This document shows, piece by piece, positions 972-64,000 of a DNA stretch of 64,000 nucleotides. The stretch is from Rhizophagus irregularis (Eukaryota; Glomeromycota; Glomeromycetes; Glomerales; Glomeraceae), in NCBI RefSeq assembly GCF_026210795.1, contig NC_089451.1, positions 2,836,001 to 2,900,000 of the forward strand, in the 5' to 3' direction. How positions within the stretch are numbered: the stretch's first letter is position 1; every line of letters begins with the position of its first letter. A program made the position numbers and the translations under genes. The notes beneath the pieces were generated by a model. That model was not told where the DNA came from and did no database searches. It saw only the letters and a list, made by a program, of their open reading frames with translations.

Positions 972-2132
972 ATGGAGGACTCTCCCAATTCTGATCTTAA
1001 TTGGTATGAAACTCTCAATGGTAAAACCGGCATCTTTGCAATAGCGGTGGTCATAATTTTTGTATCAATTATAATTATTACATTCATTGTACGAATCATT
1101 CAATTTCCTCACCTCCGCCAACAAGTTATCAATTATTTAATTGCTGACAGCACTCGAAGTGCCCCTACAAGAATATTTAAGATGATCATTTTCTTGTTCC
1201 TTACTGCCGGATTGGTGGGAGTCATTTATTTCAATGTTTATAAAATGTTTCATTATCCTCCAAAGCTATCTATGAGTTTGGAAGAAGTTGATTCTTTTCC
1301 ATCAATGCTTTTTTGCCCAACCATCAAAAACGCTAATTTCGAAATTATGGAAGCAGGATATTATGAAAGTATTCCTGATATTAATAAAAATAATCCACTT
1401 GTTGATTTAATTGGCTCGAAAGTTTTTCAGAAGGATAATCTAGGAGAAAATAGTGATTGTGAATTTTTTAATGGGACATTGTTCCCATCGTTCCTGAAGA
1501 AGAAGAATTTTGCTGGAGGATATTATGATCTAACCTTTAATTCTTCCGAAGTTATCATTTACATGGGTGATAACAACGTGGACTGGATAAACTTCATTCC
1601 TCAAGGAAAAAAATTCAGTGATGTTGAATCTATAACGTTACAAGCAGGGGGTAAAATTTTTCAATATACAGAAACTCGTATTTAAGTCATAAATGGAACC
1701 ATATATCGAAATTTCCAGATGTCCTTTAAGGGTGATCTTCTCCCTACCACTGACGATACTGTTGGACTCTTAATCAACGCACCAGAACGTGTCACGACGA
1801 TGATTTTAAGGCCATCCCTTACACTAGTTGAAATTTTTAGTAACATCGGTGGTTACCTTAGCCTCTGGGGAATTGTTGTCTTTCTTTTCGGTCGTGATAA
1901 GATGGACCCATTCGGATTTGTCTCACGCTTTGTATTCATAGAACAGGATAAAACGAAACTTCTTAAGGAATTGAAGAAAATGAAAGATGATAGAAGTGTA
2001 AAACAAAGTAAGATTGATATTATCACCGAAACAAGTAATCTCGACGATCAAATTGAATTAGAAAACCTGCTTGCGAAGTATTATGTTCACATGGATTTCT
2101 ATAAACATGCTGTCAAGACATCCGACGTATAA
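972..2132 (+). pseudogene. Multi-pass membrane protein, copy A, interrupted by one nonsense codon
   Basis: This is the first of three paralogues (others at 8534 and 36061). The reading frame is open from 972 to 2132 except for one in-frame TAA at 1683-1685. The paralogues have CAA and CGA there, so a single C-to-T change of the CAA form explains it. No frameshift is seen and the frame continues as Val-Ile-Asn-Gly-Thr. Features are as in the intact copies: two hydrophobic segments near residues 23-45 and 73-92, a SFPSMLFCP motif, a long presumably extracytoplasmic region, then IGGYLSLWG leading into a third hydrophobic segment and a charged C-terminus ending KTSDV. The product would be 237 residues, losing the last membrane segment, unless the stop is read through. 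A sequencing error is possible. Function unknown; see the 36061 entry for a tentative channel-like reading. Confidence 0.8.
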
Positions 2133-2314
2133 TAAATTATATATGGAGCATAATATATACGTGTCTATTTATTATAACAACATACTTTTTCAACATTTCT
2201 TTTTGTTATAAACAATATATGTAAATAAAGTGCATATCATAAAAAAATTATTGATAATGTGACAAACTTTAAACAGTTTAAGTCTCATTATTTTATTGTG
2301 TTATTTTGGGATCC

Positions 2315-2433
2315 GTACAAAATCCCGAATGTCAAAATCCCGAATGGTACGAAATCCCGAAATATTGGCCAGAATTAAGCATAATGCTGCCCGGTTCGGG
2401 ATTTTCTGGATTTTGACATTCAGGATTTTGTAC
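2315..2433. repeat. Foldback (palindromic) repeat at left end of the insertion
   Basis: The arms at 2315-2340 and 2408-2433 are inverted with one mismatch. An inner pair (AAATCCCGAA at 2352-2361 against TTCGGGATTT from 2395) extends the stem. The core word 'aaaatcccgaatg' repeats several times. Confidence 0.7.
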
Positions 2434-2688
2434 CAGACCCGTCATAAAGCACTACCTATATCAACAATCCTTACTATCAACGCCAATACTAACGCACATT
2501 TTATGGTTAGTGATAAAAATCGTGCTATCAATGCACCAGAGGTCTACTTCAGATGCACTCCGCCTCCGGATGACGCTTCAAATACTACAATGAGTGTCTC
2601 ATATTTTTCCGCTGCTGAATCTGTGGACACCATCATTTACCCGCTAACACCGGCGCACGAACATTGTCCTGTGAAAATAAATATATAA
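2434..2688 (+). pseudogene. Unrecognised coding-like exon fragment inside the insertion
   Basis: An open frame runs from the foldback to a TAA at 2686-2688. The last ~80 codons have balanced, globular-protein-like composition (segments such as PEVYFRCTPPPDD and SVSYFSAAESVDTIIYPL) and use far more C and G than nearby spacer DNA. There is no convincing start: the ATG at 2296 lies in flanking and foldback sequence. I do not recognise the family. It may be the 3' exon of a captured gene or chance coding bias in a GC-richer insert. Confidence 0.3.
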
Positions 2689-4197
2689 AAACGAAAAAAT
2701 TCGGACCTGCTAACCTTGCATCATTTTGTACCTGACAGTATTTACGTACAACAACACTGATCGAAGAAAAATACGTGTATCTATATCGGAGTGTAAGTAA
2801 CCTACCTGGACTCTCTTTTTAGCTTTAATTAGTTTTTTTGTTCACTATTTGTAATGGTGCTATCTTACAGGGATTTCCTTGTTATCACCCCAGTCTACGT
2901 CTATATTGAATAAAATAAAATAATATAAAATAAAATAACGGGTCTGGTACACTTTATGATAGCCGTAGTTGTATTGAGGAATGGAACTGACGTCAAAACG
3001 ACGTCGCACCTTATAATCGAACAAGTTGATGTTATACGCTTTCAGGTAGAATATGCGCGGGTCACCGGGAGTACCCGGTGGCAACACAGGTAAGGGTTTC
3101 TTGCATTTGTTGCGCTTTCTAATACGTCGGAGCCAGTTTTTTTCCCGTTTACGAATTTTCCAGCCCCAGCAGCGGTATGTAGCCCATTGTTAGGATTGAT
3201 AAGTCGTGAACGCTGAGGCCTGAGGCCTGAGGTAGATGTTATAATTGTTTGAAGACCGGGTTAAATAACGACTGCGGCAGGTTGTTCACATTTCACATCG
3301 AAAATAAATTCCTAAATAAATCACGTGTTGACCGGAACTCAAATGTATCGTTCTTGACCTGTACGACGGGACTGACTTGACCCGCATAATATATTTTACA
3401 ATAAGGAGGGTCAAGATGATGCCACCATGAGGGTCAAGTCCGATACTTTTGCGAATCGGACAAAAGTTTTAGCCCCCCTATCCTTTTGACTGTCGTTATT
3501 GGTTCGGTTACGTATCGCAAGAAGTTTTCTCGTTGTAATTGGCGTAATCTATTGAAGTATTTCGTGACAGTTTGTTTAGAAAATTGCCTATTTAGGGAGA
3601 AAACGAACTTGAGGTAGTAAGTCCCTAAAATGTAATTTAAATTGGGTTTGTTAGATGTTGATCGATAGACCTTTTGTGAGCTCCGTATCATCTTGAATTT
3701 GTTATTGATCGTCAGGGTAAATCTTTATTGTTTCGTAGTGCAAGCAGAAAGTACCTGCCTTTTTTGGTATCATGTTTCGTTCCACTGCCACGCATGTCAC
3801 ATGAGATGTATGGGTTGGTTCGGCAAGTATGATACGAACTATATATAGCTTTAGTTGCGTTGGTAGTTGTTGTGTCGTTGGCTTCAGTCATAGCGAACTT
3901 CGGGGTAGGCTCCGTGTGTCGTCAGGAGAAAGAAAAAAGGTGGTACTAGGTATAGACCGATGTGAAAATTGTTCCTAACTCTTTGTCACGAAGAACAACA
4001 ATAGGTTCAAAATAACTAAAGTTTTTATTTTGTTATATATTTTTAAAGAAAAGAGTTTATTAGTGTGTGTAGTTGATAGTAGAAACACTTCCGGGTTTAT
4101 ATATAGCAACGAGCGTCTTTGTGATATAGGACATATACAGCTAACGTCGTTAAAATTTTGTACCAAATATCCGTGCTTTCTATTTTATTGTGTTATT

Positions 4198-48290: not shown

Positions 48291-48600
48291 AGAAGAAAAT
48301 CATTTAACAGAATGCACCATAGCGTCAAAAGTACTATTTTAAGCTTGCAGATGATCATTTACACGCAAACACACATGATCAATCAGAAGAAAATCATTTA
48401 ACAAAATGCATCCATGATAGCGTCAAAATACCATTTTAAGCTTGCAGGTGATCATTTACACGTAAACGCACATGAATCAATAAAAGATTTATTCGGAAAT
48501 GAAGGAGAAAATCATTAAACAGAATGCAACCATAGCGCCAAAAGCACTATTTTAAGCTATAAATGGTCATTTTACACATAAACACTATAAAAAAATTACT
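48291..48600. repeat. Three imperfect ~95-115-bp tandem repeats
   Basis: Copies start at 48291, 48385 and 48501. Shared words are 'gaaaatcattta', 'ac(a/a)gaatgca', 'tagcg(t/c)caaaa', 'actattttaagct' and 'catttacac'. No coding sense. It lies ~130 bases upstream of the BTB-TLDc start, so it could be part of its promoter region. Confidence 0.6.
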
Positions 48601-55904: not shown

Positions 55905-57374
55905 TTAATTTTTATCTGTTTTGACATTTAAAGAATAAATTACTAATTTCATGCAAATAATTTGCAAAACTAATTTATTTTATATCATACTATATTACAT
56001 ACCTAATGACTTCAAATTAACCATATATTCACCCAAATCTTCACTTACTAGCATTTCATTCACTTTTACACTAGCTTGTGAATCTTCACTTTCAAGAATT
56101 TCGTTCAATTTTTTGCTAGTATTTTCATCTGTTTTAATATTTAAATAATTAAATAAATAAAATTAATTTCACAAAATAATTTGCAAGATTAATTTCTATA
56201 AATACATTACATACCTAATGACTTTAAATCCTTAATTATATAATCATTCAAATCTTCACTTACTAGCATTTCACTTTCAAGAATTTCATTTAATTTTTTA
56301 CTAGTAAAATTAAGCAAGCGACTTATATAACAAGCCTGTGGATGAGATTCAGTAACAAGATTATTATGCTCAATTGGTGCATTTATAAATTCCATAATGT
56401 TGCATTTTAATTCTTCATCAATATCTTTAATTTTCTTGCTAATAGGAAGATAAATCCATTTTTTAATAATTTCTAATACTTCCTTAGAAGATGGCCTATT
56501 TAATAGATTTTCATCCCAACATTTTTTCATCAAATCTACATAGCATTGTGGAGTATTTTCAATAATTTCAGGACGTTCACCTTTACAAATACTTAAACTA
56601 AGTTGAATATCATGTGCTCTATTGTTAAATGGTGGTATTCCAGATGTAAATTCCCACATAATCATCGAAAAACTGTATACATCACTAGCTGGAGTATAAG
56701 GTTTGCCTCTTAAAACTTCAGGTGCCATAAATGGTACAACACCATAAATCTTATACTCTTTCAAAAATGATTTTACAGGTTGACATAATCCTAAATCACT
56801 AACATAAATATTACTCTCATTATGATTTAAAATATTACCATCATGAAAATCACAATGAATAAGATTTTGTTTATGAATAAAATTAAGTCCAGAAACAATT
56901 TTATGCAACATATATAATTTTTGATTCCAACCACTTTCAATTATTCTTGTTAAGTTTCCTCTTAAATTACCTTTGTTTGCATAATCCATTACTACCATAT
57001 ATTTCAAAGTATCTGGATTTTTTGTAAATCCATAAAAATAAATAATATCATATGAATTTAAACAACTCTCATGATATTTCCACTATAAAGATTAATAATA
57101 TATTAACATAAATAAATGATAATTTAAATTAAAAAAATAAATGATGTAACATCTCACTTCATTTAAAAATTCAATCAAATTTTCATTTAAATCATTATGA
57201 CATTTAAGAATTACTTCAATATCTCCATCATTGCTTAACCATATAGCTTTGTGTATAGTACCAAATCCTCCTTCATTAAGATATTCAACATCTTTAAATT
57301 TATTATAGGGAATCCATTTTAATTTTTTTTCAAGAATAAATTCATCTATAATTGTATTTTCACTTTTTCCAAAT
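55905..57374 (-). CDS. Protein kinase, 5' part missing (about 406 aa visible)
   Basis: Exons on the minus strand: 57374-57158, 57082-56215, 56128-56003, 55915-55905, all in phase. The first base of 57374 completes a codon begun in an unseen exon. Counted from the first full codon: glycine loop NEGGFGT (33-39), VILK lysine (57), catalytic loop HCDFHDGN (148-155) with Cys replacing Arg of HRD, DLG (168-170), MAPEVLRGK (191-199). The catalytic Asp, Asn and Lys are present, so activity is plausible, but it is a non-RD kinase. The segment TSKKLNEILES...SEDLNDYIIKDLKSLG at the end of exon 2 of these repeats, altered, in the next exon, so an exon-plus-intron was tandemly duplicated. The upstream exon would lie beyond the array and LINE at its 5' side. 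TSGN-like pre-kinase sequence appears here as FGKSENTIIDEF. Confidence 0.8.
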
Positions 57375-57439: not shown

Positions 57440-59588
57440 ATTAAAATTAACACTTACTCTAAAATTTAAATAGGAATTTAAGATAATATAAGTTTTAGTT
57501 CTTATATAAATATATATCAATAATAAGCTATATCACAACTTACCAACTGAAATTTTAAATGAAAGAATAGTTAACAAATAAATATTATATAAATTATATA
57601 ACAATAAAAATAACAAATAACCTACAAGCTATATTATTAAATAATTTTTTAAATAAAGAATTTAGTTAGCTTAAATTATATTAATAATAGAATTAAATAA
57701 ATAAATTATAACCTACAATCTAAAGGAATTACAAAATAATTTTTTAAATAAAGAATTTAGTTAATTTAAATTATAAAACAATAAGTAATAATAGAATAAA
57801 TAAATAATTTATGACTAACAATCTAAAGGAATTACAAATAATTTTTTTAAATAAAGAATTTAGTTAATTTAAATTATATGTAAATATTATAACAATAAGT
57901 AACAAATAGATAACTTACCAACTAAATGAAATTACAAAAATAATTTTTTAAATAAAAAATTTAGTTAGTTTAAATTATATGTATAACAATATGTAATAAT
58001 AGAACTAAATAAATAGCCTATAACTTACGATCTATTTAAATAAAGATTTAATTAGTTTAAATTATATAACAAAAAGTAATAATAAAATTAAATAAATAAC
58101 TTACTTCCTATATTATTCAAATAATTGTTTACAAAAGAATTTAATTAGTTTAAATTATATGTAAATATTATAACAATAAGTATAATAGAATTAAATAAAT
58201 AACTTGCCAACTAAAAGAATTTACAAAATAATTTTTAAATAAAGAATTTAATTAGTTTAAATTATATGTAAATATTATAACAATAAGTAATAATAGAATT
58301 AAATAAATAACTTACCAACTAAGTGAAATTACAAAAATGATTTTTAAATAAAGAATTTAGTTAGGTTTAAATTATATGTAAATAATATAACAACAAGTAA
58401 TAATAGAATTAAGTAATAATAGAATTAAATAACAATTTACTCCCTATATTATTTAAATAATTTTTTTTAAATAAAGAATTTAGTTAGTTAAAATTATATG
58501 TAAATACTATAACAATAAATAATAATATAATTAAATAAATAACTTACTTCCTATTATTATTTAAATAATTGTTCAAATAAAGAATTTTAGTTAGTTTAAA
58601 TTATATGTAAATATTAAAATAATAAGAATTAAATAAATAACTTATAACTTACGATCTATTTAAATAAAGAATTTAGTTAATTTGAATTATATGTAAATAT
58701 TATAACAAATAAGTAATAATAGAATTAAATAAATGACTTACCAACTAAATGAAATTACAAAAATAAATTTTTAAATAAAGAATTAAATTATATGTAAATA
58801 TTATAACAACAAGTAATAATAGAATCAAATAAACAATTTACTCCCTATATTATTTAAATAATTTTTTAAATAAAAATTTAGTTAGTTTAAATTATATGTA
58901 AATATTGTAACAATAAGTAATAGTAGAATTAAATAAATAACTTACTTCCTATATTATTTAAATAATTGTTTAAATAAAGAATTTAATTAGTTTAATTTAT
59001 ATGTAAATATTATAACAAAAGTAATAATAGAATTGAAAAATAACGTACCAACTAAATGAAATTACAAAAATAATTTTTAAATAAAAAATTTAGTTAGTTT
59101 AAATTATATGTAAATATTATAACAATAAGTAATAATAGAATTAAATAAATAACTTACCAACTAAATGAAGTTACAAAAATAATTTTTAAATAAAGAATTT
59201 AATTAGTTTAAATTATATATAAATATTATACCAATAAGTACTAATAATTGAATTAAATAAATAACTTATAACTTACGATCTATTTAAATAATATTTAGTT
59301 AGTTTAAATTATATATAAATATTATGACAATAAGTACTAATAATAAAATTAAATAAAAAACTTACATCCTATATTATTTAAATAATTTTTAAATATAGTG
59401 TAAATATTATAACAATAAGTACTAATAATAGAATTAAATAAATAACTTACCAACTAAATGAAATTGCAAAAATAATTTTTTTAAATAAAGAATTTAGTTA
59501 GTTTAAATTATATGTATAACAATATGTAATAATAGAACTAAATAAATAGCCTATAACTTACGATCTATTTAAATAAAGATTTAATTAG
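57440..59588 (-). repeat. ~105-bp tandem array with a 3-nt micro-exon-like site in each unit
   Basis: Read on the minus strand, every unit has an acceptor-like end (TTTCATTTAG, AATAATATAG or TTTAAATAG), three bases, then a donor (mostly GTAAGTT, sometimes GTAGGT, GTTAGT, GTAAAT, GTACGT or GCAAGT). The triplets lie at 57544, 57626, 57717, 57820, 57919, 58029, 58105, 58208, 58316, 58441, 58548, 58653, 58742, 58842, 58946, 59049, 59158, 59277, 59366, 59451 and 59562 (plus-strand start). They are TTG, CTT, ATT, ATT, TTG, ATC, GAA, TTG, TTG, GGA, GAA, ATC, TTG, GGA, GAA, TTG, TTG, ATC, GAT, TTG, ATC. A degenerate unit is near 57458. Spacing is 76-125 nt. There are no other conserved exons between. 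It may be one long intron, a chain of 3-nt exons, or an expanding intron array. Confidence 0.75.
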
Positions 59589-62500
59589 TTTTTTTTTTTT
59601 TTAACGAAGTCAACTTTATTTAGAAATAAGAAAAATTACAAAAAAGGAAAAGATCTACATTATATAACATTTAGTAAAGAACACGATCGAACTAATACTA
59701 TAATATTATTAGGGACTTAAGATTTTATGTTCAAAAGAACTATCTACCATCCTGCTCACCCAAATAGGTTCACTAAACTATCCGCATAACTACTACTATT
59801 CGTATGGACTTCGGTAATGTTATATAAAAACTCACCACAACTCCTTTAATTACTACTACAACATCAAAGATAATAAAAATAATACTACGAAACACTACCG
59901 TAATCAACAATATTATAGTAATCTATTGTATTACCCCCAAAATAAATATGACTTTGAAGACTTTGTAGATTAAAGTATTTCTTATTTTTTGATTTACGCG
60001 TTTTGTCAATAAACTGCTCTTTACCAAAATGTTGTTTTTTAACATTTTTATCAATTCCCAAACCTCTATCAATTTCATTAAGTTTATTACACCTCACTTT
60101 CCAAAAAATCATAGATTTATCCAAAATTTCATTCCTAAAATTATATGACAAAATTTCAACTTTTGATTTCGTAGATAATAATTGTTTAAAAAAATTAATT
60201 AACGAACAAGGAAAGAAACCTTTAATTAAATCTATGAAAGTTATGTGATCCTCTGATACTTCAAGTTTCCAAATATCATTGAGATTTTTAATATGTTCAA
60301 GAGTAATATGATTAATAGGATCTAAAATTTTATTAATTTCTAAAAGAAGCCAATTTTGTACTCCTGAAATTAAATCATCCATATCCTCTCGTCTTTCTTC
60401 ACAAAACCAGATATGATTGAAATCTTCTTCATCCTCTTCACACATAGGACAAAACCTTTCTTTATATAATGAAAATAAAGTTCTTTTAATTTGTTCAATG
60501 CAAGGAAGTTCTTCAATCATCAACTGAATTTTGCGTCTTCTAATTTTTGATTCTTTGAAATCAGTGTATAATTTTTGTTTTTCTCCCAAAAAATTATTAA
60601 AAAAAATTGACCAATCTATTTCACATTTTCTATACTTATCATTTCTATTTAAATTTAAAAACCTTTCCAAATTTTTCGTATTGGTTGTTAATGTAATTAA
60701 CTTTCTTAAAGATTTTTCTATAACTATGCCATTCCATTTGGGAATCCAAGGAAGATCATAAAAATTATTATAATTTAAATTAATTCCTAAATTTTGATCA
60801 TTATGTGCCAAAGAAACAATATTGTCGACATAATTATTTAAAGAATCATCTGTATGAGCATTAACTTTAAATATATTAACAGATAAATTATTTTCTTTAA
60901 TAATATCCATAATTATTTTCCAAAGAATGTTGTTATTACTAATTTTAAAAATTTGTCTAGTAACTAAAGTAAAATTATAAAATTTAAATTTTTCAAAATT
61001 ACTAATAACGCTAGCACTATCTGTATAAACTGTTAAATTACTATTAGAAGGTGCTATTAGCAAAGTAATTAATAAAGCAAAAATTTCTGCACGTGTTGAT
61101 GAAATCCAATTATTATAAGATGATATTAATTCCAAAATTTTTTGCAAGGACAAATTATAAAAAGTTGTTCCAAAAGTAGCTGATACATATTCTTTGGTAA
61201 TATCTTTAATTGAACCATCTGTATAGCAAACAAAATCTTTAATGTTTGAATCATATAAAATTTTTCTTGAATCAAATAATTTCTGTTTATCTAATGATAA
61301 ATCTATATATTTTTCAATAATATCTAAACTATTTTCATCAAAACGTAATTGATAATTATCATATGAAGAGTAATATAAAGGGTTTCGTTTAAAAAATTGA
61401 TCATATCTTATAATATTTTCCATATAATTATGTTGTGCTTCCTTTAAAAGATATGCCTTATATCCCTTCCATTTAATAAGTCTTTTATATCTCACTTCAT
61501 ATATTTCAGTTTTCATTGATTCTATTATACATTTACCCTCTATTTGACCAATATTATATTCACAACCATTACATACTTTAATAAACAAATTAATTTCACT
61601 TGTGTCTGATATTCTTTTAAAATGTTCAAAAATATATGTAAAGGGCTTTTCTTCAATTATTTTTCCATAAATATTTTCAAAATGAAACATATTAAAAGAT
61701 GTTATAATATTATTAATATGAATATTAATTGGTAAAAATTCATAACCACCCAAATTTGTGACTACATTATTATCTATATATTCCTCTTTAACATTATAAT
61801 TTTTTCCATTAGTTGTAACTAAAGACTGAATTTTTTTATATATATTTGGCGTATTAACTACATTACTATTTCTATTATTACTAAGAGCAAATATCTTATT
61901 TTTTATATTCCACCATGTCAGAAGAGTTTTGTTATCAGGAGATAAAAATTGGTCCAAAAAGTATAAATTATTCATACGTAAAATTTTTATATTTTTCAAA
62001 AAACTTTCAGTTCCAACAATTTCCATAATATGACGACCCCTTCCTAATACAGTACTATTTTTCCCAATATTGTGTTTATTAAATTCTATACTAAAATTAT
62101 AACTTTTCATTAATAATAAATTATTAATAATAAAATTATTTCGCAAATGTTGACCCATAAAGATTAAATCTTTATTAGAAAAAGGAAAATTAATTAAAGG
62201 ATTGAAAGGTAAAAGTAGTTTATTTTGAATATCTACTAAACGAATCTCCATTATTTTTCCTAGAATTCCTTGATCATTAATTTGAATTATAAAATTATTA
62301 ACCTTAGCTTGCAATTGATTATCAAAAATTGAACGAATATTATATAATAAATTCAATTCCATAATTATATTTGGTGCAGTTGAAGCTAACTTTAATTTAT
62401 TTTTAAAATTTTTTCTATAAGGAACCATGATTTTTTCACAATCTTTTTCTGATAGTATTATCGTTTGTGTCCTATATTCGATACGTGGTAATATTACAGC

Positions 62501-64000
62501 ATTAAAAATATAGGAACTAATTTTATCTGTTATGCATTTGTTCTTCAGCAGGTTATTACTTAAATTTTTAACTTCATCAAAGGCTTGTTGTTTGATAAAA
62601 TTGTTATCATTATATATATTGAACCAAACACCCAAGATTCTAAGACTTTCTGTTTTTCCTTTAGGTTTGATTTTGATTTTCTGATTGCCAAATTCTAACT
62701 CTATTTTTTCATTAAAATTAAAATTCTTTTTCTTAAGTAACAATTCAGATTTTTCTTTATTTATTTGAATATCGTTAAGAGTATAGAAGTCATCAGCCGT
62801 TTTTAATATTTTTTCTAATTCTTCTTTATTGCCAGCTAACATATTAGTATCATCCATATATGCCATGCTGGTAATGTTTTGTTTTACTTCTACCTCTATA
62901 TTTTCATATAAATTGATTTTCTTTTTTGCTTTTACACGATATCCAAAGTGTTCTTGCTGTATGGCAGTAAGAAGTGGATCATAATATATACACCACAAAA
63001 GTGGTGAGATTATTTCCCCTTGATCGATTCCAACCATTACATCATATGGATTACTTAATCCTCCTGCTGTAAATACACTATTTTTCCGTCCTAAAAATAA
63101 CTCTTTTGTTAAATTAATAAAAGAACTTGGTATTTTAAGACGTTGCATAGCTTTTTCTAACATAAAAATATTAACACGATCATATGCTTTTGACATGTCT
63201 AATGATAAAATCCACAGTTCCTTATCATTCTCATTAGCATCTTGAATTATTTCATTAATAATCCTTAATGGTTCAAAAGTTGAACTGAAAGGCAATCCAG
63301 CAAATTGTAAACCTTTAAGAATTTTGTTTTTCTGAAGAATTGTTGATAATCTTGCATTCATTATTGATACCATTAATTTCCTAGCCGTTTCCAACAAAGT
63401 TATTGGGCGTGTATTAACTAGTTGACAACCCCATGGCTTTGGTTTCGGTATAGGATAAACATTAGCATATTTCCATTCTAATGGTATCTCTTGATTATTA
63501 AAAATTAAAATAATTAATTTTCTAATAATTTCTTTAAATTCTGGAGATGCGTGTTTCAACATTTCATTACTAATACCCGTAGGTCCAGAAGCTTTATTAT
63601 TTGATAATTTATTTAAAGCTTCATTCAATTCATCATTTGTAGGCTCTACCATCAAATCTTTATAAATTTTATCATTAATTTCATCTTGAGGAAAATAAAA
63701 TTTTGCCCAATATTCTGATAAAATCTTAGGTTGGTTTGTTGATCCTGCAATATTTTGAAAATGATCATTTACAATATCTTTTATTTTTTCTTCATCAGTG
63801 ATTAATTTATCTTCATTATTTTCTTTAATTAGAACTCTGTCTAATACAATGGATTTAATTTCACGTTCCATTACACTATTAATCATACGTTTTTGATTTT
63901 CTAATAAATCTTCACAGCGTTGGTCAATTGCTAGTTTAATTTTTTCTTCTTTGAATTGTAAAAGATCGTGATTATATAGGATTAAATAAATTTGATATAA
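59589..64000 (-). mobile_element. LINE-type retrotransposon, 3' part, inserted in the array
   Basis: Minus-strand element whose 3' end is a 14-nt poly(A) (plus-strand T-run 59589-59602) joined directly to array sequence 'taatta'. Its ORF ends at 59885, giving a ~280-nt 3' UTR. The element runs past the window's right edge, so the 5' end, any endonuclease domain and the second target-site duplication are not visible. Confidence 0.9.
59885..64000 (-). CDS. LINE ORF2-type polyprotein: RT, RNase H, CCHC finger (partial)
   Basis: The frame is open from the window edge through the ATG at 63886, so that Met is not the true start. Numbering from it: the RT fingers (NKASGPTGISNEMLKHA, 97-113), PIPKPKPWG (146-153), RPITLLETARKLM (160-172), first catalytic Asp in SLDMSKAYD (228-236), GIDQGEIISPLLW (286-298) and the YMDD box (343-346) form a full reverse transcriptase. 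LRILGVWF (415-422) is the thumb. RNase H follows with TDGS (889-892, D890), RAE (E934), YTDS (D956) and a later AHTDDSLNNYVDN (D1014-D1021). A CCHC-type finger, C1146, C1149, H1158, C1162, is near the C-terminus. It makes cDNA from its own RNA at a nicked target. No stops over 1333 codons, so it may be recent. RNase H behind RT fits I-clade or Tad-like LINEs. Confidence 0.93.
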   Translation of the reverse strand, partial: LYQIYLILYNHDLLQFKEEKIKLAIDQRCEDLLENQKRMINSVMEREIKSIVLDRVLIKENNEDKLITDEEKIKDIVNDHFQNIAGSTNQPKILSEYWAKFYFPQDEINDKIYKDLMVEPTNDELNEALNKLSNNKASGPTGISNEMLKHASPEFKEIIRKLIILIFNNQEIPLEWKYANVYPIPKPKPWGCQLVNTRPITLLETARKLMVSIMNARLSTILQKNKILKGLQFAGLPFSSTFEPLRIINEIIQDANENDKELWILSLDMSKAYDRVNIFMLEKAMQRLKIPSSFINLTKELFLGRKNSVFTAGGLSNPYDVMVGIDQGEIISPLLWCIYYDPLLTAIQQEHFGYRVKAKKKINLYENIEVEVKQNITSMAYMDDTNMLAGNKEELEKILKTADDFYTLNDIQINKEKSELLLKKKNFNFNEKIELEFGNQKIKIKPKGKTESLRILGVWFNIYNDNNFIKQQAFDEVKNLSNNLLKNKCITDKISSYIFNAVILPRIEYRTQTIILSEKDCEKIMVPYRKNFKNKLKLASTAPNIIMELNLLYNIRSIFDNQLQAKVNNFIIQINDQGILGKIMEIRLVDIQNKLLLPFNPLINFPFSNKDLIFMGQHLRNNFIINNLLLMKSYNFSIEFNKHNIGKNSTVLGRGRHIMEIVGTESFLKNIKILRMNNLYFLDQFLSPDNKTLLTWWNIKNKIFALSNNRNSNVVNTPNIYKKIQSLVTTNGKNYNVKEEYIDNNVVTNLGGYEFLPINIHINNIITSFNMFHFENIYGKIIEEKPFTYIFEHFKRISDTSEINLFIKVCNGCEYNIGQIEGKCIIESMKTEIYEVRYKRLIKWKGYKAYLLKEAQHNYMENIIRYDQFFKRNPLYYSSYDNYQLRFDENSLDIIEKYIDLSLDKQKLFDSRKILYDSNIKDFVCYTDGSIKDITKEYVSATFGTTFYNLSLQKILELISSYNNWISSTRAEIFALLITLLIAPSNSNLTVYTDSASVISNFEKFKFYNFTLVTRQIFKISNNNILWKIIMDIIKENNLSVNIFKVNAHTDDSLNNYVDNIVSLAHNDQNLGINLNYNNFYDLPWIPKWNGIVIEKSLRKLITLTTNTKNLERFLNLNRNDKYRKCEIDWSIFFNNFLGEKQKLYTDFKESKIRRRKIQLMIEELPCIEQIKRTLFSLYKERFCPMCEEDEEDFNHIWFCEERREDMDDLISGVQNWLLLEINKILDPINHITLEHIKNLNDIWKLEVSEDHITFIDLIKGFFPCSLINFFKQLLSTKSKVEILSYNFRNEILDKSMIFWKVRCNKLNEIDRGLGIDKNVKKQHFGKEQFIDKTRKSKNKKYFNLQSLQSHIYFGGNTIDYYNIVDYGSVS

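Follow-up and report, generated by a model that had tools for sequence, protein, structure and literature searches.

Tandem arrays of predicted codon-sized exons upstream of kinase exons in Rhizophagus irregularis, and the hypervariable N-terminal segment they are inferred to encode

The window analyzed here is the whole 64,000-nucleotide stretch C23:2836001-2900000 of the Rhizophagus irregularis genome, of which 146,748,485 bases in 32 contigs were searched. According to our analysis, the minus strand of the window carries a kinase gene preceded by a tandem array of units, each holding three bases between an AG and a G(T/C), and the array is bordered by a LINE-type retrotransposon. The preliminary description of this DNA had reported 21 such sites; we recover all 21 on the minus strand from 59564 to 57544, separated by predicted introns of 73-122 nt, and their triplets are those that had been claimed (TTG, ATC, GAA, GGA, GAT, ATT, and CTT). 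The predicted features are as follows, the 3-nt exons all being placed by the splice-site chain described further below.

59600..64000, continuing past the window, minus strand: LINE-type retrotransposon, 3' part with its poly(A) end at 59600 (RVT_1, RNase_H)
59562..59564, minus strand: 3-nt exon ATC, the first after the LINE
59451..59453, minus strand: 3-nt exon TTG
59366..59368, minus strand: 3-nt exon GAT
59277..59279, minus strand: 3-nt exon ATC
59158..59160, minus strand: 3-nt exon TTG
59049..59051, minus strand: 3-nt exon TTG, donor GTACGT
58946..58948, minus strand: 3-nt exon GAA
58842..58844, minus strand: 3-nt exon GGA, donor GTAAAT
58742..58744, minus strand: 3-nt exon TTG
58653..58655, minus strand: 3-nt exon ATC
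58548..58550, minus strand: 3-nt exon GAA
58441..58443, minus strand: 3-nt exon GGA, donor GTAAAT
58316..58318, minus strand: 3-nt exon TTG
58208..58210, minus strand: 3-nt exon TTG, donor GCAAGT
58105..58107, minus strand: 3-nt exon GAA
58029..58031, minus strand: 3-nt exon ATC
57919..57921, minus strand: 3-nt exon TTG
57820..57822, minus strand: 3-nt exon ATT, donor GTTAGT
57717..57719, minus strand: 3-nt exon ATT, donor GTAGGT
57626..57628, minus strand: 3-nt exon CTT, donor GTAGGT
57544..57546, minus strand: last 3-nt exon, TTG
57458..57458, minus strand: 1-nt exon A, shifting phase 1 to phase 2 (chain; 21-bp context repeated genome-wide)
57158..57374, minus strand: first kinase exon, starting with a third codon base (A, then TTT GGA), recognized by homology to the first kinase exon of other genes
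56207..57082, minus strand: main kinase exon, to the stop codon (PF07714, E 1.3e-33)

The array had also been said to lie directly before a kinase exon that begins in mid-codon. The kinase exon at 57374 does begin with codon base 3; the final unit before it (A, 57458), however, measures 1 nt and not 3. The main kinase exon of the window gene scores 116.8 bits against PF07714, for which the gathering cut-off is 23.1, and the 93-amino-acid first kinase exon alone has no Pfam match at 0.001. The LINE sits in an intron of the array, next to a CTAA-type stretch, and splits the 40 three-nucleotide units that the window gene has in total into 21 + 19. Beyond it, the array resumes with the 19 further units at G000:C23:2905750-2907545; this upstream half-array, exon 2, and the start exon lie outside the window, in locus L013 (C23:2904800-2911300). 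When the gene is spliced in silico across the LINE, the start exon, the 69-nt exon 2, the 40 triplets, the 1-nt exon, and the kinase exons form a single uninterrupted 434-amino-acid ORF. Since the LINE lengthens one intron to about 10 kb, the window gene may be silenced or dead despite its intact codons. On the minus strand at window positions 56000-56130, a second copy of the kinase C-terminal coding stretch (NEILESED... LKSLGM) follows a GTATGT and is perhaps an alternative last exon. A 97-bp tandem repeat at window positions 48291-48481 (two copies, 88% matches) is unrelated to the array.

The observation is real, and it is larger than first described. Searching the genome with the window array gave at least 118 matches, which manual grouping assigns to about 32 array loci. 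The pattern TAGNNNGTAAGTTATTTA has 2009 matches in the genome versus 4 for its reversed control, while for one unit type, searched as TAATATAG-N(0-12)-GTAAGTTATTTA, 1224 of the 1244 genome matches have a spacing of exactly 3, the control giving 0 in both counts. The 21-bp context of the 1-nt exon, TATTTAAATTTTAG-A-GTAAGT, occurs 77 times in the genome and not once as its reversed control (0); among the matches listed, which comprise 150 kinase exons, at least 74 of these 77 contexts lie no more than 1 kb upstream of a same-strand kinase exon, at least 72 of them at 53-79 bp. Altogether, 38 array loci were read. Thirty had been selected by their array, and in 29 of them a same-strand kinase exon follows; the 8 selected by their kinase exon (L018-L025) all have an array upstream (8/8). 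Since 532 of the 1027 known units fit TAGNNNGTAAGTTATTTA and 339 of them fit the longer pattern, the genome should hold roughly 3,700-3,900 such units, as extrapolated from the two patterns. For the kinase genes of R. irregularis, a count of 2,533 is given in the accessible part of an earlier report (PMC10234402). Illumina and Nanopore RNA data of strain DAOM197198 are described there as well, the Nanopore RNA having been mapped with the intron length capped at 3000.

Several loci have features of their own. L016 (C1:1936800-1939800) is a remnant with two units only and no kinase within its 3 kb, and at about 2128-3001 it holds an open frame with short tandem Cys-rich repeats (CVNSGACYSSVT...). 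Match spacings at G000:C2:1347000-1355500 indicate a higher-order repeat of about 1,683 bp within one array, with a triplet that is GGA in one copy versus AAA in another. A divergent array subfamily is found upstream of kinases at L017/L045 and L014, and the L045 kinase has, judged by eye, a long coiled-coil-like C-terminal tail.

The 951 introns considered (those over 130 nt being excluded) have a median length of 100 nt and a range of 63-122 nt. Their donor is GTAAGT in 875 cases and they terminate in TAG in 888, and CTAAY is present in 795 of them versus 231 after base shuffling, mostly 20-45 nt from the 3' end. Judged by such sequence signals only, the criteria of a spliceosomal intron, i.e., donor, branch site, acceptor, and plausible length, are met. 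Retention of the intron would bring in an in-frame stop in 944 of the 951 cases. As for RNA structure, the three window introns that were folded do no better than their shuffles (z 0.42, -0.36, and 1.37).

To chain the introns, donors and acceptors were scored, while exon length could take any value from 0 to 20 nt and did not enter the score. The site weights were trained on the AG-N3-G(T/C) sites of a first gene set and then used to score held-out genes. The chains of 33 paralogous kinase genes hold 1075 exons, of which 1027 measure 3 nt and 33 measure 1 nt, an outcome that is not due to chance; the 3-nt share is 548 of 576 exons in the 18 first-set genes and 479 of 499 in the 15 held-out genes. 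The 1-nt exons are, in 31 of 33 cases, the final exon before the kinase. Another 15 exons are of some other length and resemble local parsing errors or damaged units; introns longer than 130 nt also occur in several chains. Not included in the 33-gene counts are L028, the only one of 34 genes tried to give no chain, because its kinase acceptor ATATGG falls outside the pattern (it does have the 1-nt exon site and 31 strict units), and L014, L015, and L017/L045, whose arrays precede divergent kinases. The suggestion that chain length could vary by copy number is borne out, the parsed genes having from 10 to 49 units each. As a prediction made from DNA, these genes meet the criterion of micro-exon genes, namely a coding region that consists largely of symmetric micro-exons.

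A recursive (ratchet) splice site should instead leave an exon of zero nucleotides, a criterion that the array units do not meet: in the 12 first loci, spacing 0 is found in 2 matches versus 368 with spacing 3 (locus overlaps being counted twice). The idea that the units serve the stepwise removal of one long intron, the 3 nt left over being incidental, has in its favor the resemblance of AG-N3-GT to a recursive site and the fact that stepwise splicing of 1-nt exons is the mode favored by the authors of PMC4674806, as far as the available portion of that report goes. It predicts, however, neither a length of 3 rather than 0 nt nor the hypervariable triplets and the stop avoidance between neighbors reported below, and we deem it most unlikely. 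A stepwise order may still be the way in which the micro-exons are spliced.

The reading frame can be followed from one end of the genes to the other. Applied to the 33 genes, a motif rule located a start exon in 25 of them; it is 13, 19, 22, or 31 nt long, which is 1 mod 3 in 25 of 25. The 3-nt exons preserve this phase 1, and the 1-nt exon shifts it to phase 2, which is the phase of the kinase exon start. The 1-nt exon site is located no more than 170 nt from the kinase acceptor in 32 of the 33 genes and farther upstream in the chain in L032. If the start exon were joined directly to the kinase exon, with the array skipped, the frame would shift. This closure from start exon to 1-nt exon to kinase exon, together with the avoidance of stops between neighbors, supports the micro-exon reading of the preliminary description, splicing being inferred. 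Each site had been expected to add one codon without shifting the frame; the triplets do keep the phase, but they are not themselves codons, since in phase 1 a codon would take its base 1 from one micro-exon and its bases 2-3 from the next.

Phase 0, in which the triplet would be the codon, was ruled out by the start, 1-nt, and kinase exons and by a TGA triplet in C17, L018, and L040. It is also almost without stops (3 of 1027), and as phases 0 and 1 are both nearly stop-free, the choice of phase rests on the flanking exons and not on stops. The site AG T GTAAAT, which in some genes might pass for a further 1-nt exon behind the conserved one, was rejected as such, since the gap would be only about 30 nt and the site is missing from several genes. 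As parsed, 23 of the 33 chains are in frame to the kinase, two with one stop each (L019, CGT-AAC; L022, ATT-AGA). The remaining 10 are out of frame as parsed (C3, C7b, C5, C7c, L021, L025, L027, L032, L036, and L037); they have an odd-length exon, an extra 1-nt exon, or a parse without the 1-nt exon, so that some of them may be pseudogenes. Of the 25 start exons, 6 encode M-G, four of them as M-G-Q-C-I-G-K. We take this M-G start to resemble an N-myristoylation site, in which case some members of the family may sit at membranes. In the long-type genes (L013, L018, L021, L022, L023, and L025), exon 2 encodes acidic stretches of varying length, e.g., E-E-F-E-E-S-G-T, another variable linker.

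Stop codons formed across introns were counted in 951 neighbor pairs of the 33 genes and compared with triplets shuffled within genes; two units counted as neighbors if the intron between them did not exceed 130 nt and no odd exon intervened. In phase 1, 2 of the 951 codons are stops versus 22.3 expected (minimum 8 in 3000 shuffles). The first gene set has 2 stops in 505 versus 9.4 expected, and the held-out genes have 0 in 446 versus 13.0 expected (minimum 5 in 3000 shuffles); in phase 2, stops number 137 of 951. If distinct pairs are counted only once, 2 stops remain versus 12.5 expected (P 3e-5); by this test the evidence is weak for the first set (P 0.03) and strong for the held-out genes (P 1e-5). 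TAG shows the strongest depletion of all 40 base-dinucleotide cells (1 versus 18.4, P 5e-9). Pairs at lag 1 taken in reversed order give 29 stops, as against the 2 of the true order. At lag 2 the avoidance is partial (12 versus 20.8; distinct pairs, P 0.25), and at lags 3-8 no stop depletion goes beyond noise (lag 3, 25 versus 19.6). We know of no cause in DNA or satellite biology for a stop avoidance limited to neighbors, other than the splicing of neighbors to each other followed by translation. Splicing is therefore inferred here from selection, no transcript evidence being at hand, and the confinement of the avoidance to immediate neighbors speaks for the normal inclusion of every unit.

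The symmetric 3-nt units would leave any subset in frame, and a combinatorial alternative splicing could accordingly be imagined in which transcripts differ in the micro-exons they contain, the micro-exon genes of schistosomes being an example. The somewhat low number of stops at lag 2 is in line with it. Common skipping under selection should, however, also deplete stops at lag 3 and beyond, where the lag-3 count does not fall below expectation. The profile over lags 1-8 is only an indirect test of alternative splicing; it speaks against frequent skipping, and we regard combinatorial use of the units as unlikely.

The triplets differ from everything around them in their variability. In 336 units, the information per column is 0.07, 0.72, and 0.01 bit at triplet positions 1, 2, and 3 and 0.49-2 bits in the flanks. 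Triplet columns no more special than arbitrary ones would have refuted the preliminary description; this is not the case, as they stand apart from the flanks. Among 530 first-set units, pairs with identical 40+40 nt flanks differ in their triplet in 970 of 1351 cases, versus a median of 4% in control windows. Three control windows, at -38 to -40, reach about 40%, probably because a run of A is shifted there; no other control window exceeds 19%. A single flank type, represented by 42 units in 5 genes, is combined with 10 triplets. In near-identical blocks (161, from 20 genes), introns differ at 1.1% of sites and the three triplet positions at 43, 25, and 43%, the intron figure being low by design because the blocks were selected for intron identity.

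These data also bear on whether the array is an ordinary satellite inside one long kinase intron, its splice words a by-product of the repeat and its triplets unread. Its repeats are indeed tandem, higher-order, and AT-rich, with homogenized units. Such a satellite would not, however, be expected to vary in the triplets and not in the flanks, to avoid stops across introns at lag 1, or to be followed so regularly by a same-strand kinase exon (29 of the 30 array-selected loci), and skipping the array shifts the frame, the conserved 1-nt exon being required. The criterion of a non-coding satellite, i.e., freedom from reading-frame constraint, fails on the 2 stops in 951 versus 22.3 and on the conserved 1-nt exon site. 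As a by-product of a repeat consensus, the satellite is ruled out by the neighbor-only stop avoidance and the contrast between triplet and flank, and we grant it next to no credence.

How the triplets came to differ can be approached through pairs of units with closely similar flanks. With one mismatch per ~200 nt of flank, triplets differ in half of 114 within-gene pairs and in three quarters of 349 between-gene pairs; with neither mismatch nor gap, they differ in 18% of 71 within-gene and 84% of 25 between-gene pairs. Half of the differing within-gene pairs with one flank mismatch differ at all three bases, as might be produced by a targeted mutator acting on the triplets in place of ordinary mutation, recombination, and selection. 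Conversion from units of the same intron would, however, look alike, and within-gene pairs with fully identical flanks retain the triplet in 82% of the 71 cases; we hold a mutator to be quite improbable. The high between-gene figure for mismatch- and gap-free flanks of ~200 nt (84% of 25) could instead point to an origin by introner invasion, with near-identical introns inserted between the codons of a segment that was already variable. Against this, chance insertion at every phase-1 position over dozens of codons is unlikely, and tandem duplication has copied blocks of units along with the triplets they contain (in C14 at offset 5, 7 of 8 triplets are preserved, with 0 of 778 intron positions mismatched). 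An introner origin is doubtful in our opinion, although it keeps some small weight.

The composition of the triplets is not uniform. At position 2, 984 of 1027 triplets have T or G, whereas all four bases occur at positions 1 and 3. Position 2 supplies the third base of the codon, which gives codons of the N-N-(T/G) form; it is mostly G after a G at position 1 and mostly T after any other base. Codons in the first-set kinase exons mostly end in T (613 of 1254) or A (500 of 1254). The commonest residues of the predicted segment are R, D, W, F, N, and Y, and C and M are nearly absent. Counted by eye, D-W occurs near the segment start in 25 of the 33 genes, with the Trp codon split over two micro-exons, and F-E-F occurs just before or at the kinase exon in 21 of the 33.

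The array architecture, the frame closure, the cross-intron stop avoidance, and the hypervariability of the triplets are observations. The reading we prefer, to which we assign a probability of roughly 0.87, is that constitutively spliced codon-sized exons encode a hypervariable N-terminal kinase segment that is reshuffled by recombination between introns. The predicted transcript would consist of a short start exon (phase 1), followed in some genes by one or two further small exons, then of 10-49 exons of 3 nt separated by spliceosomal introns of about 100 nt, then of the 1-nt exon and the kinase exons. The introns would probably be excised one after another by intron definition, each splice lengthening the upstream exon by 3 nt and thereby juxtaposing the next GTAAGT; the micro-exons would normally all be included, in order, with codons straddling their junctions. 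Actual splicing, its order, and full inclusion are inferred. Since the introns form a near-identical tandem satellite, units could be exchanged without loss of frame, and recombination and gene conversion between units may add, drop, and swap codons with the frame intact, their diversity being maintained by selection. The mechanism of this shuffling, whether conversion or unequal exchange, is likewise an inference.

We further put forward, tentatively and as a possibility we would not yet bet on, that the arrays constitute a germline codon-shuffling system. The introns would act as homology arms through which individual codons could be duplicated, lost, or exchanged, whether inside a kinase gene or among different ones (at least tens of genes in all), with the frame kept. 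Each strain would come to possess its own extensive set of recognition segments linked to kinases, with a codon pattern much like that of a designed N-N-(T/G) peptide library. This set would serve to tell self from non-self among hyphae, to provide immunity within the cell, or to recognize partners. That the segment recognizes something at all (self/non-self, a partner, or a microbe) and signals via the kinase is a guess, there being no ligand-binding data. To our knowledge, no sexual cycle has been observed in R. irregularis.

If the preferred reading holds, one genome would contain ~3,700-3,900 codon-sized exons, a test of the lower limit of exon size and of exon density, and sequential intron-definition splicing would become testable in a natural extreme. 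Introns would directly diversify proteins, homogenized introns with hypervariable codons being the inverse of an ordinary repeat, and this would be a new route by which genomes make variable proteins. The N-terminal ends of many R. irregularis kinases would probably be missing or wrong in gene models, because splice aligners hardly place 3-nt exons; this is an inference, as the annotation was not seen. The segments would also be a candidate molecular basis of recognition in arbuscular mycorrhizal fungi, a basis that is, as far as we know, still unknown.

In the open-licence literature, no report of such arrays, or of micro-exons in Rhizophagus, was found among the matches listed; subscription papers and preprints were outside the scope, and absence from print is unproven. 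A parallel for the variability is the HNWD family of NLR-type recognition genes in the fungus Podospora, where homogenized tandem repeats have a few hypervariable codons per unit, shaped by recombination and diversifying selection. The HNWD repeats are coding throughout, whereas in R. irregularis it is the introns that are homogenized and a single codon that varies. For exons of this size, we know elsewhere only of isolated 1-nt and 3-nt cases. A 1-nt exon of Arabidopsis APC11 is spliced, as tested (PMC4674806), and a 3-nt exon of Drosophila hth is reported to be spliced as well (PMC7392893). Those exons are isolated, while R. irregularis would have dozens per gene and thousands per genome. 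In Trichoderma Xlr2, a single regulated 20-nt microexon is functional; before it, as stated in the accessible text, no functional microexon had been described in filamentous fungi, and among fungi only Schizosaccharomyces pombe had been experimentally tested (PMC11121469). Xlr2 is similar, as far as that text allows us to say, in being a microexon case in a filamentous fungus and differs in involving one regulated 20-nt exon.

Aphids and schistosomes also possess gene families with many micro-exons. In the aphid bicycle and megacycle genes, the exons are not known to be reduced to one codon, nor the introns to form a homogenized satellite. The portion of the source at hand describes many small exons of nearly all one phase, fast evolution, one gene with >100 microexons, and a putative role as plant-gall effectors (PMC9168663). 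On that partial account, they share with the R. irregularis genes the status of a gene family, the many small exons of nearly a single phase, and the fast evolution, and they differ as putative gall effectors without a kinase. The symmetric exons of schistosome micro-exon genes are longer than 3 nt. The coding sequence of these genes consists mostly of very small symmetric exons, and variation is attributed to alternative splicing, within the limits of the text available; an exon-intron satellite array is not described in that part (PMC4350168). On the same partial basis, they are alike in having tiny symmetric exons, variable interface proteins, and a frame kept upon loss or gain of units. 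In R. irregularis, instead, the exons would be of 3 nt and apparently all included, and the variation lies in the genome.
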